The notes beneath the pieces were generated by a model. It ran no database searches. It was not told where the DNA came from and saw nothing but the letters and a program-made list of their open reading frames with translations. From a virus: a DNA stretch of 35,702 nt. Position 1 is the stretch's first letter, and every line of letters starts with the position of its first letter. The stretch covers positions 1 through 35,702 of the IMG/VR virus record IMGVR_UViG_3300025098_000144. One strand, 5' to 3'. A program made the position numbers and the translations under genes. Shown here one piece after another: positions 5,210-31,475 of the stretch.

Positions 5210-6955
5210 ATGGCAACCACTATTAAACTTAAAAACGGATCAGGTGCGCCTGCAGCTAGTGATTTAGTCCAAGGCGAACCAGCGATTGATCTGACTAACA
5301 GGCGTCTGTACACAGAGAACGGTAGCGGCGCTGTTATTGAGGTGGGTTCAAATCCAAGCAGCCTTTCTATTGGAGGGACTGCTGTTACCGCAACACCCGC
5401 AGAATTAAACATTTTGGACGGAGTAACGTCCACTACTGCCGAGCTAAACATTCTGGATGGCGTGACTTCAACCGCCGTAGAATTAAATATTCTTGATGGT
5501 GTTACTTCTACGACTGCGGAATTGAATATTCTGGATGGAGTGACATCTACTACTGCTGAGTTAAACATCCTTGACGGAGTAACCAGCACAGCCGCCGAGT
5601 TGAATATCTTGGATGGCGTTACGTCTACAGCAGCAGAGCTTAACATTTTGGATGGGGTTACCAGCACAACAGCTGAGTTAAATATCCTTGATGGGGTTAC
5701 CTCTACAACAGCAGAACTAAACATTTTAGATGGCGTTACAAGTACTGCTGCTGAACTAAATATACTAGACGGCGTTACATCAACGGCTACCGAGTTAAAT
5801 GTATTGGACGGTGTTACGGCCTTTGTTGATGAAGACAATATGTCTAGCAACTCTGCTACATCTATTCCTAGTCAACAGTCAGTTAAGGCTTATGTTGATG
5901 CTTCAGTTGTTAGCGGCAGTGGTATTTCAAATGTTGTCCAAGACACGACCCCACAGCTAGGCGGTGACCTAGACGTAAACGGCAATGCGATTGTTAGTGT
6001 ATCTAACGGAAACATTGCACTAACACCAAACGGTAGCGGCCTTGTACGGCTAGACGGCAACGTAGATATTCAATCAGGCGAGATTGTTCTGAAGAACGCT
6101 GGCTCAGTATCTAACGTAAAGTTTTATTGCGAATCCAGCAATGCTCACTACACACAGCTTCAGTCATCTGCTCACAGCGCATATAGCGGCAATGTAACGC
6201 TAACCCTGCCGCCCGCTACAGATACTCTGGTTGGTAAAGCAACAACCGACACGCTTACAAACAAAACTCTTACCTCTCCTAAAATAAATGAAGATGTTGC
6301 AGTTACTGCAACCGCAACAGAAATCAACCTGCTAGACGGAGTAACAAGTACTACAGCAGAATTAAACATTCTTGATGGTGTAACAAGTACCGCAGCGGAA
6401 TTGAATATCCTAGATGGTGTTACAGCTACTACAGCAGAACTTAACTACGTTGACGGTGTTACCTCTGCTATTCAAACCCAGCTAGATGCTAAGGCTGCTG
6501 TTGCCTCACCAACCTTTACGGGTACGGTTACAATCCCTACTGCTGACATTAACGGTGGTACAGCAGACGGCGTTGTTATTGGTGGCTCTACAGCCGCTGC
6601 AGGCACATTTACAGCAGGTACATTTACAACCGCAACTGCTAGTACTAACACCGACACAAGCAACACTGGCAATGTAACGCTGGACTTTAGTGCTAATCAA
6701 AACTTTGTACTGACGCTAACAGGTAACGTGACTCTGGTTAACCCAAGCACAGAGATTATAGGTCAGTCTGGATTTATCGTGTTTATCCAAGACGGTACTG
6801 GTGGACGAACGGTGTCTCTTGGTACTGACTACGAGACTGCTAATGGAGCAGGGCTTACCTTGTCTTCTGCCGCAAGCACTACAGACATTGTGCCTTACGT
6901 TGTAGCCGCATCAGGCCGCATCTTGCTTGGCGCTCCCCAACTCGCGTTTAGTTAA
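5210..6955 (+). CDS. Tail fibre protein with AELNILDGVT repeats
   Basis: A 581-residue fibre. After a short N-terminal head (about residues 1-60, probably the virion-anchoring part) come eleven 13-residue repeats of the form xxAELNILDGVTS (DNA 5393-5821), a spacer, then four more (6311-6466). A SPTFTGTVTIP motif and beta-rich, Thr/Gly-rich C-terminus follow, ending in a compact GRILLGAPQLAFS. Such repeats are well known in aquatic phage fibres and are taken to form a trimeric beta-rich shaft; the C-terminus would contact the receptor. GGAGTAGTTC precedes the ATG. No intramolecular chaperone motif was recognised. Confidence 0.88.
   Translation: MATTIKLKNGSGAPAASDLVQGEPAIDLTNRRLYTENGSGAVIEVGSNPSSLSIGGTAVTATPAELNILDGVTSTTAELNILDGVTSTAVELNILDGVTSTTAELNILDGVTSTTAELNILDGVTSTAAELNILDGVTSTAAELNILDGVTSTTAELNILDGVTSTTAELNILDGVTSTAAELNILDGVTSTATELNVLDGVTAFVDEDNMSSNSATSIPSQQSVKAYVDASVVSGSGISNVVQDTTPQLGGDLDVNGNAIVSVSNGNIALTPNGSGLVRLDGNVDIQSGEIVLKNAGSVSNVKFYCESSNAHYTQLQSSAHSAYSGNVTLTLPPATDTLVGKATTDTLTNKTLTSPKINEDVAVTATATEINLLDGVTSTTAELNILDGVTSTAAELNILDGVTATTAELNYVDGVTSAIQTQLDAKAAVASPTFTGTVTIPTADINGGTADGVVIGGSTAAAGTFTAGTFTTATASTNTDTSNTGNVTLDFSANQNFVLTLTGNVTLVNPSTEIIGQSGFIVFIQDGTGGRTVSLGTDYETANGAGLTLSSAASTTDIVPYVVAASGRILLGAPQLAFS
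5393..5821 (+). repeat. Eleven tandem 39-bp coding repeats in tail fibre
   Basis: Eleven contiguous 39-base units encode the same 13-residue repeat. The protein is nearly invariant while codons for N, I, L, D, G, V, T and S vary freely between units, so DNA identity is much lower than protein identity. The last unit ends LNVLDGVTA. Confidence 0.95.
6311..6466 (+). repeat. Four further 39-bp coding repeats in tail fibre
   Basis: Four contiguous 39-base units of the same family, beginning TATEINLLDGVTS and ending TTAELNYVDGVTS, separated from the first block by about 490 bases that encode a different fold. Edge units are the most diverged in protein sequence. Confidence 0.93.
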
Positions 6956-10598: not shown

Positions 10599-12172
10599 TG
10601 TCTTGGTTTTACGAGGAAGGTACAACTGGGCCAAAAGATTTTGATAATGCATCTGAGTGGCGAAATTTTGTAACTAATTTATTTAACACTCTTTTAAATG
10701 ATTACTATCAAACCGAGCAAGGCTCAGACGATATAGACAGAATTTATCGGCAAGAAGAAGCTGAAAAATGGCAAGAATTGTTAGAAGCAGTTGGATCAGG
10801 AAAAGAAGCTGTTGACGCGTTAAAAGATTTTGATGATGAATTTTTGTCAGATCTTGATGGTTGGAATGAATACAAATCTTCAGTATTAAACTCTGTTGAA
10901 TCAGAGTACGTCTCTAAAGACGATGACGATGATGGTGCTGATAATAATGATGATAGTAGCGACGATAATGATAATGACGATGATGATGGTGGCGATGATA
11001 GCGTTGACACAGCAGAACAACTAACAAAAGACGCTGCTGTTGCAGAGCAAAAAAATAAAGACGCTGCTGAAACAGAGCAAAAAGAAAAGGACAGCGCCGC
11101 AGAGCCAGAAGCAAAAGATAAAGAAAAATCTGAGGCAGAGCAAAAAGATAAAGATTCTGAAGCAGAAAAAGATAAAGACGCTGCTGAGGCAGAGCAAAAA
11201 GACAAGGATACTGAGGCAGAAAAAGATAAAGACAACAAAGAAATAACCTCAGATAATTGGACTATGTCATTTTGCCCTTCTGGATATTCATATCCTGATG
11301 GAAGCTGCGTTCCGCAAATTGAAGTTGACACAGACAGAGAAAACAAAGCAGCAAATGCGGCAGAAGAAAGAGCAAAAGATCAAGCCGCAGAGCAACAAAA
11401 AGATGCAGAAAACAGCAGCAAAGAAACGGAGCAAGAAAAGGACGATGATTTAGCAGAGCAGCTAGAAAAAGATACTGCTGAAAATGTAGCCAACAATGCA
11501 GGGATTAACAAAGACACAGAAGACTCTGCCTTAGCTGACACCACTAAGGACGATGATGGCAGCAGTGGGGATGATAGTGACGGTGACGGTGACGGAGATG
11601 GAGACGGTGACGGAAGTGACGAAGACGGAGATGGTGACGGAAGTAACGGAGACGGAAGTGACGGAGATGGAGACGGAGGAGAAGAGGCAAATCAAGATTT
11701 AAATACCAAAGATGATACAGAAGAAGAGCTAGAAATATTAAACAACCCTACCAAGGATGGTGAGACTATTGATCAAATTATTAATGGAAAAGATTCAGAG
11801 TCTGAAGCAAAAGAAAAAGAACCTGAGCTTGGCGCAGGCAATGACAAAGACGGTGGAGGCACCGAACTTTCAGTAGAAAGCCTTGCAACAAAAGACACCG
11901 AGGGAGGATCTAAAGATCCTGGCGACGGCGGAGGCGGAGAGGGTGACGTATTAAATTTGTTTAAAGGAATAGGTCTTGGGGCTGCTGCGAGCGGCGACGG
12001 CTTTACTCCTCCTGCAGCGCAGAAAACTAAATATAAATTTGATTTTAATCCCCCAACTCCACAAGACGTAAACTTTACAAATAAAGACTATTTAGCTGAG
12101 CTTGAGTTATTTAGTCCAGAAAAACAACTTGATGAAATTATTAAACGAAATTCAGGTGGGATGTTTACATGA
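10598..12172 (+). CDS. Very acidic low-complexity repeat protein
   Basis: About 524 residues. An ordered acidic N-terminus (about 1-105) is followed by an Asp/Asn block (DNA 10915-11005), a stretch of AEQKxKD-type repeats (11020-11240), a short Cys motif FCPSGYSYPDGSCVP, more Glu/Lys helix, a DGDGDG block (11570-11680) and a C-terminal ordered tail of about 60 residues. The tail contains a PPTPQD segment and ends GGMFT. I do not recognise a family. DGDG blocks resemble Asp-rich calcium-binding repeats, but this is only composition. It sits between holin and head-tail adaptor and overlaps both by 4 bases. ATG 10598 has AAGGGG 8 bases upstream; a GTG three bases earlier is in frame. Confidence 0.7.
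   Translation: MSWFYEEGTTGPKDFDNASEWRNFVTNLFNTLLNDYYQTEQGSDDIDRIYRQEEAEKWQELLEAVGSGKEAVDALKDFDDEFLSDLDGWNEYKSSVLNSVESEYVSKDDDDDGADNNDDSSDDNDNDDDDGGDDSVDTAEQLTKDAAVAEQKNKDAAETEQKEKDSAAEPEAKDKEKSEAEQKDKDSEAEKDKDAAEAEQKDKDTEAEKDKDNKEITSDNWTMSFCPSGYSYPDGSCVPQIEVDTDRENKAANAAEERAKDQAAEQQKDAENSSKETEQEKDDDLAEQLEKDTAENVANNAGINKDTEDSALADTTKDDDGSSGDDSDGDGDGDGDGDGSDEDGDGDGSNGDGSDGDGDGGEEANQDLNTKDDTEEELEILNNPTKDGETIDQIINGKDSESEAKEKEPELGAGNDKDGGGTELSVESLATKDTEGGSKDPGDGGGGEGDVLNLFKGIGLGAAASGDGFTPPAAQKTKYKFDFNPPTPQDVNFTNKDYLAELELFSPEKQLDEIIKRNSGGMFT
11577..11682 (+). repeat. 6-bp-periodic GAYGGN repeat coding DG-rich tract
   Basis: A degenerate run of GACGGT/GACGGA/GATGGA hexamers, interrupted by AGTGAC, encodes alternating Asp-Gly with occasional Ser, Asn and Glu. 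It lies inside the acidic protein and is a likely site of slippage-driven length variation. Confidence 0.85.
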
Positions 12173-21329: not shown

Positions 21330-21560
21330 CTAATGCATCTTGTAATATTTTTCTGTGATCTCTAATTCAGTAAGCAAGCTAGCTAACCATAAATCATAGA
21401 AGTCTTCTAGGGGCATATCGATTGTAAGACCATCTGGGTATGTATCCGTGTATACATCTGTTTGCTTTTCATTCTTAAGGTTTGTTGTTGCGCCACCAAC
21501 GGTTGACGTTAGCAGCACTGCATTACCGTTCGGCAACTTTACGCCAATTAAAGGAATCAC
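21330..21560 (-). CDS. Hypothetical protein (76 aa)
   Basis: Not recognised. The N-terminus (MIPLIGVKLPNGNAVLLTST) is beta-like and the C-terminus is acidic and helical (FYDLWLASLLTELEITEKYY). Its ATG overlaps the stop of the metallophosphoesterase (21557-21560), so it is co-translated in the replication operon. No cysteine motif, signal peptide or membrane segment is seen. Confidence 0.6.
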   Translation of the reverse strand: MIPLIGVKLPNGNAVLLTSTVGGATTNLKNEKQTDVYTDTYPDGLTIDMPLEDFYDLWLASLLTELEITEKYYKMH

Positions 21561-22717
21561 TCTCTGGGCCTCACTGTCACTCTGCCAATCTCGCCATCTA
21601 TCTTGTCATAGGTAATTACTTTAGCACCTCTGCGGGAAACCCATCCACCCCTGGCAGCATATGCGTCACGGCCACTTAACGTAGGATGCATTTCTGCAAT
21701 AGCGCCACCGTCTTCAATCAAACGCTCATGATGATAGTGGCCGGTATGAATGTAAGTGTAAGTAGCTTTGCCCCACATCTCTCGGAAACGTGGCTCACTA
21801 GCAAACAACTTATGCAGCTGCGCTAGCTTTACTTTGTGACCGTGGTGAAACGCCAGCATTGTTTTTCCATGAAGATAAGCGTAATACGGAAACTCATTGT
21901 CAATTACCTCTAATCTTTTTTCATCAGAAAATAGTTGTTTAATGTGCTTCCTTAACCAGATGCTTCCAGAGATGTCGTGGTTTCCTTCGGCAGAAACTAC
22001 CACCACTTTATTAAATTTTCTTAGCATCATCCTTACTGCTTCAGACATAACTGACATAGCTAGCTCGACAAGCTTCCCGTATCGCGTGTCAGCATCTAGT
22101 ATATGTCCAGACTGAGGGGTCACGCTAAGGATTCCATCCCAGTGCAGAAAGTCTCCTAGCTGACAAAGAAACCCTGTGCCGGCTTTAGGCGCAGCATCAA
22201 TCATATCGCTAACAGAATTAAGGAATACATCTCGCGCTATCTTTACGTTCCAATCGTCTCCTGTTTCCGCCTCATAAGCATACATGCCTAAATGAAAATC
22301 AGTGATAGTTAATAGAGAGATTAGATTATCGTCGTAGGCTTTTGGTGCGGGGGTAGGTGCAAACTTAGGCAGTCCTTCTAACGCAGACTCCAGCCTTTCA
22401 ATAAGTATCTCAAACTGGCGCTGCTCATCAGTCTGTGATTTAACCCATTGGCGCACCGGACTTCCGTCCTCATCATAAAAAGTAGACACGCCCTTAATCT
22501 TATGTCCGTCAGGTACAGGGTGGTGCCAATCATTGTCGGGACTGTAGCCCCTCCTAACTGCCTTGGATTTAACTGCTTCTATATGATCTCTTACAGTGCT
22601 TCGAGCCATCCCAGTTTGAACAGACGCAGCGCGTTGGGACATTCCTTGAACAAAACAAAGAGTAATTACTTCTGCTTGCTTTTCGGTTGAACAAAACTGC
22701 AATAATGGATGACTCAT
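21557..22717 (-). CDS. Metallophosphoesterase with N-terminal HTH
   Basis: A 386-residue protein. Residues about 22-50 (QGMSQRAASVQTGMARSTVR) form a sigma70-region-4-like helix-turn-helix. The C-terminal domain has all calcineurin-like motifs: D140-x-H142 in TDFHLG, GD at 188-189, GNHD at 245-248, HHGH at 291-294 and HTGHYH at 324-329, so both metals can be bound. Phage members of this family sit in replication loci and may act as nucleases or nucleotide phosphatases; substrate is unknown. GGGGGAATT precedes the ATG. Confidence 0.85.
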   Translation of the reverse strand: MSHPLLQFCSTEKQAEVITLCFVQGMSQRAASVQTGMARSTVRDHIEAVKSKAVRRGYSPDNDWHHPVPDGHKIKGVSTFYDEDGSPVRQWVKSQTDEQRQFEILIERLESALEGLPKFAPTPAPKAYDDNLISLLTITDFHLGMYAYEAETGDDWNVKIARDVFLNSVSDMIDAAPKAGTGFLCQLGDFLHWDGILSVTPQSGHILDADTRYGKLVELAMSVMSEAVRMMLRKFNKVVVVSAEGNHDISGSIWLRKHIKQLFSDEKRLEVIDNEFPYYAYLHGKTMLAFHHGHKVKLAQLHKLFASEPRFREMWGKATYTYIHTGHYHHERLIEDGGAIAEMHPTLSGRDAYAARGGWVSRRGAKVITYDKIDGEIGRVTVRPRE

Positions 22718-22747: not shown

Positions 22748-22975
22748 TTATTTTTGTTTTTTAATTGCTTCTAACAATAACCGGCGATACTCAGGTAAGG
22801 CATCTTCTTTTTCAGTCATTGACTCAATAAATTTATATAACTGCCCTTCAATTAATCTATGTCGCATTAACTCTACTGCCATGGCGCGCTGCTGGCTTGG
22901 CAGCATTGACTTCCAATGGTACTTTTGGGTTACAAATAGCTCCAATACACGATCATCTACATGCTCAACAGTCAT
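22748..22975 (-). CDS. Hypothetical helical protein (75 aa)
   Basis: A small, charged, helix-rich protein (for example YHWKSMLPSQQRAMAVELMR), not recognised. AAAAAAGGAG lies 8 bases before the ATG, a strong ribosome-binding site that falls inside the 27-residue micro-ORF upstream. Placed between the RepA-like ATPase with its repeat arrays and the metallophosphoesterase, it may be a replication accessory protein such as a helicase loader, but this is only positional. Confidence 0.65.
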   Translation of the reverse strand: MTVEHVDDRVLELFVTQKYHWKSMLPSQQRAMAVELMRHRLIEGQLYKFIESMTEKEDALPEYRRLLLEAIKKQK

Positions 22976-23048
22976 TAAACCACTCCTTTTTTAGTTTGCC
23001 CAGGATGCCCAGTTTGCCCAGTTTGCCCAGAAAGTCCAGCAGGCCCAT
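22965..23048 (-). CDS. Putative 27-aa amphipathic micro-ORF encoded by 9-bp repeats
   Basis: ATG at 23048 reads MGLLDFLGKLGKLGILGKLK and ends seven residues later at TGA overlapping the next gene's start. The 9-bp repeats of this strand (CTGGGCAAA) encode Leu-Gly-Lys units, giving an amphipathic helix with leucine on one face and lysine on the other. No clear Shine-Dalgarno precedes the ATG, so expression is uncertain; the repeats may exist for DNA reasons and the peptide be incidental. Confidence 0.3.
   Translation of the reverse strand: MGLLDFLGKLGKLGILGKLKKEWFNDC
22995..23048. repeat. 9-bp tandem repeat array, left (TTTGCCCAG)
   Basis: Six contiguous 9-base units on the + strand: TTTGCCCAG, GATGCCCAG, TTTGCCCAG, TTTGCCCAG, AAAGTCCAG and CAGGCCCAT. 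The core GCCCAG is complementary to the TGGGCA core of the second array 40 bases away, so the two arrays form an interrupted inverted repeat. Arrays of short iterons beside a replication ATPase gene suggest an origin. Confidence 0.9.
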
Positions 23049-23080
23049 GTTTTACGGGGCCAGTTGGCTCAACCCGCCCC

Positions 23081-23131
23081 CTAAACTATGGGCATTGGGG
23101 GCATTGTGGGCATTGTGGGCATTCTGGGCAT
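23081..23131 (-). CDS. Putative 16-aa Met-Pro repeat micro-ORF
   Basis: ATG overlaps the TAA of the RepA-like gene (TAATG), and the 9-bp repeats on this strand (ATGCCCACA) read as MPRMPTMPTMPPMPIV then stop. The overlap would allow re-initiation, and multiple in-frame ATGs are present. This may equally be a by-product of a repeat array used as DNA or RNA structure. Confidence 0.22.
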   Translation of the reverse strand: MPRMPTMPTMPPMPIV

Positions 23132-23133
23132 TA
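23089..23133. repeat. 9-bp tandem repeat array, right (TGGGCATTG)
   Basis: Five contiguous 9-base units: TGGGCATTG, GGGGCATTG, TGGGCATTG, TGGGCATTC and TGGGCATTA. The last overlaps the stop codon of the RepA-like gene. Unit length equals that of the left array, and TGGGCA pairs with TGCCCA there, leaving 3-base mismatches between paired blocks. Confidence 0.92.
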
Positions 23134-24303
23134 GATATTTGCGTTCCAAGAATAGAACTTCTTGCCATGCTCGCCTCGGCGCTCTAATTTTAAATGGTTT
23201 CCCTTTAAAAGATCGATGCAGTTTCTTAAAGTTTTGCGCGAACAGGCATTGGGGTTTACATCATCATCGTTGAGCATAGAAAACAAATCACTTTGAGAAA
23301 ATGTCTTGTTGTTTTTCATGACGCTGCTAAGAAATACAAACTCATCTTCATACCTAGACAGCGCCCTGCCTATATTGACCTGCGCTCTTTGTCGGTGCTT
23401 AAGATCTGCAATGTCATCTGCACTCATAAACTTTACTGAGTCTACAGACTCTTCATAGTCAATTAGCCCTGATGTCTGCTTGTACTTAAAGCCGCCCTCA
23501 AAGCTAACCTGGCTCCTATCCTTTTCATTAATTACTAATAGCTCTTGGTATGGAGCAAACTTATCATTCAGAGGGTCAAGGCCGAACATATTATCTACGT
23601 CAGCCTTTAGATCTCCCACGCCCTCATATACTAGTCTGCCATCCATTGTTCTGTGCTTGTTGCAGTGACCCAGTAATACCACTGTCCCGCCTGCTGCAGC
23701 AAACTCTCGGAAAACGTGCAAGATTTCTCGCATATCAGCCTTGTTTAAAACTGGGGCAAACTTCTTAAGGGTATCGCAAATAATAATCTTGCCATCAGCC
23801 TCGCCTTCCATTCTTATCGCATTTAAAAAATGCAAGGCGTCACTTGTATTGCGAAGACTTGGGTCAGGTGAGTTTGCGAGAGTCACCATAGTAATTCCAT
23901 GCTTGCCACCTAGCTTTGCTTTTTGCAACACGCCTTTGGCCCCGTCATCCTCATTGAAGTAGATAACATTAGACCCACTGATTAAGTTATTTCTTATAGA
24001 TTGAAATAGATTTCCTAATATCCAAACAGTTTTACCTGCGCCGCTTGGAGCATAGACTAAGGTGACTGTCCCTGTGGTTATCATTCCTGGGATTACATCT
24101 CGCTCTTTTAAAAGCCGATCTTCTAACTCTTTAATTCTTCCGTTGATAGAAGCGTTACGCAGCCTGCTGAGAGAAGATACTGGGCTGGGGTGAGCTACCC
24201 CATTGGGTTTTGTTTCGTTTAATACAGGGCCATTGAGAGCCTGTGAGGGGGTATTAGCTAATTGACTTTCTTCAAGACAATAGGCAGCCCAATCGTCTGA
24301 CAT
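23131..24303 (-). CDS. RepA/DnaB-like replicative ATPase (helicase)
   Basis: A 390-residue RecA-fold ATPase: Walker A APSGAGKT at residues 85-92, Walker B KIIICDTL with D177, and a following GTVVLLGHCNKH segment like the sensor region of RepA-type helicases. A C-terminal winged-helix (about 310-390; SQSDLFSMLNDDD ... SRKTLRNCIDLLKG) probably binds DNA. This is probably the phage replicative helicase, loading host polymerase. AAAAAAGGAGTG precedes the ATG. Its own 3' end merges with the 9-bp repeat arrays. A RecA/RadA-like recombinase is a less likely alternative. Confidence 0.8.
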   Translation of the reverse strand: MSDDWAAYCLEESQLANTPSQALNGPVLNETKPNGVAHPSPVSSLSRLRNASINGRIKELEDRLLKERDVIPGMITTGTVTLVYAPSGAGKTVWILGNLFQSIRNNLISGSNVIYFNEDDGAKGVLQKAKLGGKHGITMVTLANSPDPSLRNTSDALHFLNAIRMEGEADGKIIICDTLKKFAPVLNKADMREILHVFREFAAAGGTVVLLGHCNKHRTMDGRLVYEGVGDLKADVDNMFGLDPLNDKFAPYQELLVINEKDRSQVSFEGGFKYKQTSGLIDYEESVDSVKFMSADDIADLKHRQRAQVNIGRALSRYEDEFVFLSSVMKNNKTFSQSDLFSMLNDDDVNPNACSRKTLRNCIDLLKGNHLKLERRGEHGKKFYSWNANI

Positions 24304-25406: not shown

Positions 25407-25640
25407 ATGAGCGCACAGCCTGAATACCTTTACTACCGAGAGTTGTTTAGCATCTTCAAGGCATACACTACGCCTAAATTAATGAAGGTGTTGGATTCGC
25501 AAGGGATCAAATATTTTACTGATGCCAAGGGCAAGCCATTCACCACCCGCGTTGCCATCGAAGGGGCATTAGGATCTGAGAACATCGTCCCATCTACCGT
25601 GTCGGAAAGCCCTGCGGAATCGGCAACATCGCTTAGCTAG
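25407..25640 (+). CDS. DUF4224-like small protein (77 aa)
   Basis: The core RELFSIFKAYTTPKLMKVLD followed by QGIKYFTDAKGKPFTTRVAI has the layout of DUF4224 phage proteins (helix, then 'GI-x-F-x(5)-G-x-P-x-x-R'). The Ser/Glu-rich tail is disordered. AAGGAGAGACA sits before the ATG. Function unknown; in prophages members lie near integrase or replication genes. Confidence 0.55.
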   Translation: MSAQPEYLYYRELFSIFKAYTTPKLMKVLDSQGIKYFTDAKGKPFTTRVAIEGALGSENIVPSTVSESPAESATSLS

Positions 25641-30794: not shown

Positions 30795-30805
30795 TATGAG
30801 GGCGA

Positions 30806-30828
30806 GCTTTTCCGCTTTGCGGAAAAAA
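30806..30828. repeat. Palindromic direct repeat, copy 1 (TTTTCCGC-TTT-GCGGAAAA)
   Basis: Eight-base perfect arms (30808-30815 and 30819-30826) around TTT, preceded by AG and followed by extra A. An identical copy lies 47 bases to the right. There is no T-run outside the stem on either strand, so a simple terminator is unlikely. Confidence 0.9.
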
Positions 30829-30852
30829 ATAGCGGCCCGATTGTGAGGGGAA

Positions 30853-30875
30853 GCTTTTCCGCTTTGCGGAAAAAT
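30853..30875. repeat. Palindromic direct repeat, copy 2 (TTTTCCGC-TTT-GCGGAAAA)
   Basis: Arms at 30855-30862 and 30866-30873; identical to copy 1 including the flanking AG and AA. Spacing of 47 bases is about four and a half helical turns. Confidence 0.9.
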
Positions 30876-31475
30876 AGAGCGCCCCGAACGTGTGGAAACC
30901 GCTATTCTCGCGGCCCTTGCGAGCAGGTGCAGACTGTGAATTCGTTGCGGTTGTCAGGCTACGACGGGTACAAATCTATCGATAGAGGACATATCGCTTA
31001 TGGCGCTTGACCTCGGAAACGGCAAAGGATTCTGCAGCGACAAGGGTGAGGAGCAGCGGAAAACGGAATCCGTGTGAGCAATCAGGATTGAAGGCAACCC
31101 CTCTGCCATTTGGGAATGCAGGACAAAGGCTACAAAGCTGCCGACAACAACTGCTCACTCTGATTAGATCGGGCTAGTCGATAACCAATGTGGATAGCTA
31201 CTGAATAGCTCAGGGGATCCCAGCCAGACTCTCACACTCTTCCATACCGGACAATACGACACGTTGACCTGATGGGGGTCGAATAACACTACGGGGGGAG
31301 GCAGAGCATCGCCGGTGATATATATAGTTCCCACCCAGATACAAAAAAAGCGGAAATTGAAAAGAAGGAAACCGTTATAGATACTAGCTAAGAGGCGGAT
31401 TTGTTAGAAGAAAAAGTAATATCGGGGAGGTATTTGTATTTCTCTGTATTTATCTATAGGATAGGGAGGGTAGGA

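Follow-up and report, generated by a model that had tools for sequence, protein, structure and literature searches.

Facing arrays of 9-bp iterons downstream of a RepA-like ATPase gene, a candidate replication origin in a group of uncultured viruses

The RepA-like gene and the facing arrays

The window, i.e. the whole 35,702-base virus record analysed here, contains on its - strand a gene for a RepA-like protein of 390 aa (23131..24303) and, directly downstream of it, two facing arrays of 9-bp repeats. The sole Pfam match of the protein is AAA_25 (PF13481, E 3e-8). In the AlphaFold2 model a RecA-fold ATPase is followed by a C-terminal winged helix predicted with confidence, and Foldseek with the whole protein returned KaiC, RecA, Twinkle and DnaB, as well as phage replicative helicases and primase-polymerases. 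The winged-helix domain (residues 319-388; 23140..23349, - strand) is the candidate reader of the repeats. A model of residues 300-390 reached a pLDDT of 92, with the order helix-strand-helix-helix-strand-strand and weak fold matches to PadR/PagR-type winged helices. The predicted recognition helix (residues 356-366; 23206-23238, - strand) contains Arg360, whose codon lies at 23224..23226 (- strand). A PDB sequence search with the protein gave no match, and the search for a close named phage found none, the one named hit being a distant Campylobacter phage protein with 23% identity.

Array A (22993..23046, + strand) consists of six AGTTTGCCC-type 9-bp units starting at 22993, 23002, 23011, 23020, 23029, and 23038, the last two of which are degenerate (AGAAAGTCC and AGCAGGCCC). 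It faces array B (23089..23133, + strand), which has five TGGGCATTG-type units (TGGGCATTN) starting at 23089, 23098, 23107, 23116, and 23125. The step between units is 9 bp throughout both arrays, and between them lies a GC-rich centre of ~42 bp (23047..23088) containing inverted TTTTACGGGGC / GCCCCCTAAAC halves. The RepA-like stop codon (23131-23133) falls within the last unit of array B, and the 3' end of the gene reads TAATGCCC on the - strand. Array A is separated by about 17-18 bp from the next gene, whose start codon is at 22975. That gene, a 75-aa ORF (22748..22975, - strand), has no match in Pfam, PHROGs, or NCBIfam; as a neighbour it is exchangeable and does not belong to the element.

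Periodicity was measured as lag-9 matches per 36-bp span. Array B scored 25/27 and array A 23/27, compared with 20/27 at best when the whole 35.7-kb window was dinucleotide-shuffled 60 times. Tandem Repeats Finder listed other repeats in the genome, mostly coding, and no second facing pair. An earlier, sequence-only reading of this DNA had described six and five units of equal 9-base period facing across a centre, unique in the genome; the count, period, placement, and uniqueness all proved correct. It had also put the arrays at the 3' end of the RepA-like gene. They do adjoin the stop codon, but the element occupies the intergenic gap directly downstream and does not lie within the gene.

The window lacks terminal repeats. 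A portal-type ORF reads across its joined ends, and the genome is therefore probably circular or permuted. Its products include portal, major head protein, large terminase, a recombinase of the Erf type, and proteins resembling NinB and NinG. Neither a primase nor a polymerase could be recognised among the scanned ORFs, which suggests that the virus uses the host replisome. The scanned ORFs, many of them small and without assignment, also contained no recognisable separate iteron-binding protein, ssi-specific primase, or gene of the ParA or ParB kind. An Excisionase/DUF4224-like ORF is present at 25407-25640, with no integrase recognised in the ORFs scanned. The protein encoded at 21557-22717 belongs to a DNA repair exonuclease family (phrog_704), and its N-terminal part gave a match to the helix-turn-helix of sigma-70 region 4. 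Elsewhere in the window, a 47-bp unit present 1.9 times (30797-30887) carries within it a strong inverted repeat (TTTTCCGCTTTGCGGAAAA) and lies close to where oppositely transcribed genes meet, and long coding repeats are found at 5384-5778 and 11027-11678, comprising 39-bp units in a 581-aa protein and 30/54-bp plus 27-bp repeats in a 525-aa protein.

Linkage of the element to the RepA-like gene in relatives

Three RepA-like queries and one repeat pattern were scanned against viral contigs to collect relatives, which gave 232 usable loci, 94 of them distinct. Facing 9-bp arrays were found in all 94 distinct relatives, no further than ~450 bp downstream of the RepA-like gene; each RepA-like scan took the best 80 loci, so that relatives further away might lack the element. 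A strict facing-array detector identified 91 of the 94, and the remaining three (L007, L070, and L071), which have a mutated unit or a shorter chain, were added by eye. The same detector was positive in only 1 of 484 other 1-kb windows. In 80 of 91 elements the first unit lies within 60 bp of the RepA-like stop codon, while in the other 11 an extra gene stands between the RepA-like gene and the element (gap 245-430 bp). The number of units per arm ranges from 3+3 to 7+5, with 3+3 the most frequent. In the scan that used the repeat pattern only, contigs with a proper pair carry the RepA-like gene or end at its expected place, with the exception of two weak pairs (L109 and L142); the contigs without the gene mostly have single arrays.

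The unit consensus over all arms is [A/T][A/T]T-G-CCC-[A/C]-G, in which CCC is invariant because it served as the anchor and the bases around it are strongly biased. Unit types vary among phages (TGCCCAG, TCCCCAG, TTTTCCCCG, TTGGCCCCG, TGCCCAC, and TTTGCCCC), and within one phage both arms change type together. Unit length is thus kept while bases change in concert in the two arms, the pattern that the sequence-only reading had named for such a comparison. Its assignment of the iterons to the RepA-like ATPase, as a candidate origin, is likewise supported, since no relative lacking the repeats, the finding that this reading had named as counting against it, turned up among the best 80 loci per scan.

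The centre has a mean AT content of 0.43 (range 0.33-0.55), and a related G/C-run motif is present in 82 of 91 elements. In six relatives (L011-L015 and L047), the entire element appears to run the other way round with respect to the genes beside it, and from these sequences its orientation does not seem to matter. In others (L069:4180-4480, L070, and L071, and also L036 and L062), a second right-hand array and hairpin modules of the form GGGGAAAAGTGGCC...TTTTCCC are nested inside the centre of the element. The position after the element is a gene-swap hotspot, occupied among relatives by the 75-aa ORF, a methyltransferase-like gene, a membrane-protein-like gene, or others.

A mobile element or MITE was considered and rejected. 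Viral contigs show no clear paired copy away from the RepA-like gene, and a scan of bacterial genomes yielded single or unrelated arrays. As a separate observation, among contigs of Alistipes/Rikenellaceae and neighbouring bacteria (L166-L172, L177, L178, L186, L194, L196, and L197), several gut Alistipes/Rikenellaceae genomes contain many dispersed arrays of 9-bp period, of the GGGGAAACT / AGTTTCCCC kind. Some of these consist of a G-array followed by a C-array ~100 bp apart, without a RepA-like gene.

Co-variation of the repeat unit with the winged helix

Every column of the RepA-like protein was compared with the base immediately 5' of CCC in the unit. The best column was residue 360, in the predicted recognition helix. 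Arg360 goes with G before CCC and Leu360 with C, A, or T in 87 of 87 scorable phages, a count in which L069 is scored by its unambiguous arm. This phage had appeared as an exception to the rule, which is explained instead by the ambiguous register of its GGCCCC. At the level of single units, phages with Arg360 have G in 245/245 left-arm units and 225/256 right-arm units, the latter figure being affected by ambiguous register in runs such as GCCCC, whereas G was found in 0/99 units of phages with Leu360.

The association was also examined against a tree built from the ATPase domain alone, on which the residue-360/unit class switched about 8 times. Seven of seven independent pairs agreed on residue 360 and the unit base (sign test p 0.0156, uncorrected for column number). 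The top seven of the 243 variable columns all lie inside the winged helix. Three phages with identical ATPase segments illustrate the switch: L041 has Leu360 and C/A units, whereas L038 and L049 have Arg360 and G units. The result was the same in a second clade, comprising 29 phages whose units differ in other ways: columns 338 and 355 separate the GCCCC type from all others without exception, and the columns that scored best pairwise (368, 378, 355, 338, and 367) are again all in the winged helix.

Genes downstream of the element served as a control. They occur with several unit types and do not track the type: the methyltransferase-like gene was found with two unit types and an xxHRWxVD gene with three, covering both Arg360 and Leu360. 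The association between winged helix and unit persists where a gene separates the two, and that gene partly tracks the type too. Several winged-helix columns switch together, and the winged helix adjoins the element, so that one recombination can shift both; some of the co-variation may therefore be linkage. Block exchange of a matched winged helix-element module is likely, because the winged helix and the element adjoin while the gene on the other side reassorts freely. Matching between winged helix and unit is what function predicts. The co-variation in these related sequences strongly supports specificity of RepA for the units, and from it we infer a RepA-DNA contact.

Candidate origin, alternatives and known systems

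The RepA-like ATPase probably has its cognate binding site on the DNA in this element, which most likely also serves as the replication origin of the phage. The computed support for this comes from the linkage to the gene, the fixed 9-bp period, the arms changing together, and the co-variation with the winged helix and not with the ATPase domain or the gene beyond the element. Against the origin stand a centre that is GC-rich (AT 0.43) and not an AT-rich melting region, and the lack of a nearby DnaA box; the nearest is kilobases away, and an origin driven by DnaA boxes was rejected. GC skew gives the origin no independent support in the window, because the skew follows the direction of transcription.

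The composition of the centre and the lack of a DnaA box also count for the possibility that RepA binds the arrays for another job, namely autoregulation of its operon or DNA partition or anchoring, and that the origin lies elsewhere. Co-variation shows that protein and site are matched and says nothing on the purpose of binding. However, the site lies downstream of the RepA-like gene and not at a promoter, the scanned ORFs have no ParA- or ParB-like gene to go with partition, the protein has the fold of a replicative helicase, and the genome offers no other facing-array candidate for an origin. We regard such another job as unlikely, though it is the most credible of the alternatives.

Less probable still is that a long DNA or RNA hairpin is what matters, in the form of a pRN1-like stem-loop origin, a bidirectional terminator, or a noncoding RNA, with the repeats merely building the stem. 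The sequence-only reading had pointed to an interrupted stem, and the arms can indeed fold: RNA folds of the element in the window reach -79.6 kcal/mol (z -5.4) on one strand and -81.7 kcal/mol (z -5.9) on the other. Pairing is poor between arms of different types, with a double cycle of -12.5 kcal/mol favouring native pairs (89%), and in both pRN1 and Bordetella phage BIP-1 the replication gene is followed on its 3' side by a stem-loop (PMC4234260). A functional stem is nevertheless not favoured. Among arms of the same type, native pairs were no better than chimeras (+2.1; 29% favourable), which speaks against a stem tuned for pairing. The spacers of the arms are systematically non-complementary, and AA/AA spacer mismatches are kept, which weakens native pairing (-32.2 vs -36.7 for the flipped partner). 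Sense and antisense folding were equal over 88 elements (mean difference 0.9 kcal/mol), so that the signature of an RNA strand was rejected as well. No consistent T-run follows the stem among the elements, and the element matched no Rfam family. A hairpin also sits poorly with the inverted orientation of the element relative to the genes in one clade, and it leaves the co-variation with the winged helix unexplained. Because pairing with the own partner equals that of same-type chimeras and no RNA strand is favoured, the sequences fit arms that are rows of similar protein-binding sites better than a hairpin selected for pairing.

That the repeats are a minisatellite made by slippage, or code for short Leu/Gly/Lys peptides, and have no function as sites is very improbable. 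The 9-bp period preserves the reading frame, and the peptides that the sequence-only reading saw on the - strand are represented by a 27-aa ORF, MGLLDFLGKLGKLGILGKLKKEWFNDC, which runs through array A (22965..23048, - strand) and is kept in five close relatives (L002, L003, L004, L006, and L157). Outside this immediate clade the ORF is absent, and the short peptides through the arrays are probably incidental. Slippage or coding would also not account for arrays that are linked to one gene in 94/94 relatives (best 80 loci per scan), always face each other, and change type together.

If the element is the binding site and origin, RepA would use its C-terminal winged helix to bind the 9-bp units, and Arg360 of the recognition helix would read the G that precedes CCC. 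Each of the facing arrays would load one RepA multimer, the two lying head to head across the centre, and the RecA-fold ATPase, driven by ATP, would melt or remodel the DNA between or beside the arrays, after which the host replisome would be brought in. We infer binding, oligomer geometry, melting, and initiation by RepA, and the steps of assembly, melting, and initiation are modelled on the RepA fold and on known systems. More tentatively, and with less confidence than in the origin itself, the winged helix and the facing iteron origin might form one exchangeable specificity module, shared by a widespread family of viral replicons that had not been described before. If so, viruses with identical ATPase domains would swap the module whole, and co-infecting relatives or satellites, for example, would be barred from each other's origin.

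For metagenomic genomes whose mode of replication was not known before, the element marks the probable origin. The natural Arg/Leu switch paired with a G/non-G switch provides a ready-made code for origin reading by a winged helix, and natural pairs that share the ATPase domain and differ in the module make origin specificity and cross-use between viruses testable.

The RepA protein of RSF1010 (IncQ) belongs to the RecA-fold hexameric helicase family, and RSF1010 has an iteron origin. The virus described here shares with it a RepA-type RecA-fold protein (AAA_25 by Pfam) and iterons. In RSF1010, iteron reading falls to a separate protein, RepC, and priming at the ssiA/ssiB hairpins to RepB' (PMC4234260), whereas here one protein seemingly serves as both ATPase and iteron reader. 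Iterons tied to an initiator gene are also known from lambda, where they are located inside gene O (PMC7157519); here the arrays face each other after the stop codon, and only the last unit overlaps it. The alpha protein of phage P4, a helicase-initiator, uses a winged helix to bind short repeats of its origin (PMC4234260), as RepA is proposed to do, but has a Toprim primase domain that the 390-aa protein lacks. In the crenarchaeal plasmid pRN1 and Bordetella BIP-1/BPP-1, a ~100-bp stem-loop origin lies directly 3' of the replication gene (PMC4234260). The likeness extends to an inverted structure 3' of the gene, a sequence that varies between relatives, and a C-terminal winged helix. However, the Rep there is a primase-polymerase with an SF3 helicase and not a RecA-fold ATPase only, and the stem-loop origin has no iterons; the BPP-1 region contains one plain inverted repeat and no direct repeats.

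The known parallel in layout is that of SaPI/PICI satellites (staphylococcal pathogenicity islands and Gram-negative phage-inducible islands), in which the origin lies immediately 3' of rep and has two iteron sets read by the C-terminal domain of Rep (PMC7581432, PMC6092414). The element described here is also immediately 3' of its gene and has two facing iteron sets. Unlike in the satellites, where Rep is a DUF927 or D5/Primase_Cterm helicase and the centre is AT-rich, the protein here is a RecA-fold AAA_25 protein, the centre is GC-rich, the unit is 9 bp and tandem, and the element sits in a phage that has head and terminase genes of its own. By analogy, the element would work like a PICI origin yet stand outside that family. 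A large group of uncultured viruses thus combines a SaPI/PICI-like layout with an ATPase unrelated to theirs, a sign that the plan of an origin 3' of rep may have arisen more than once.
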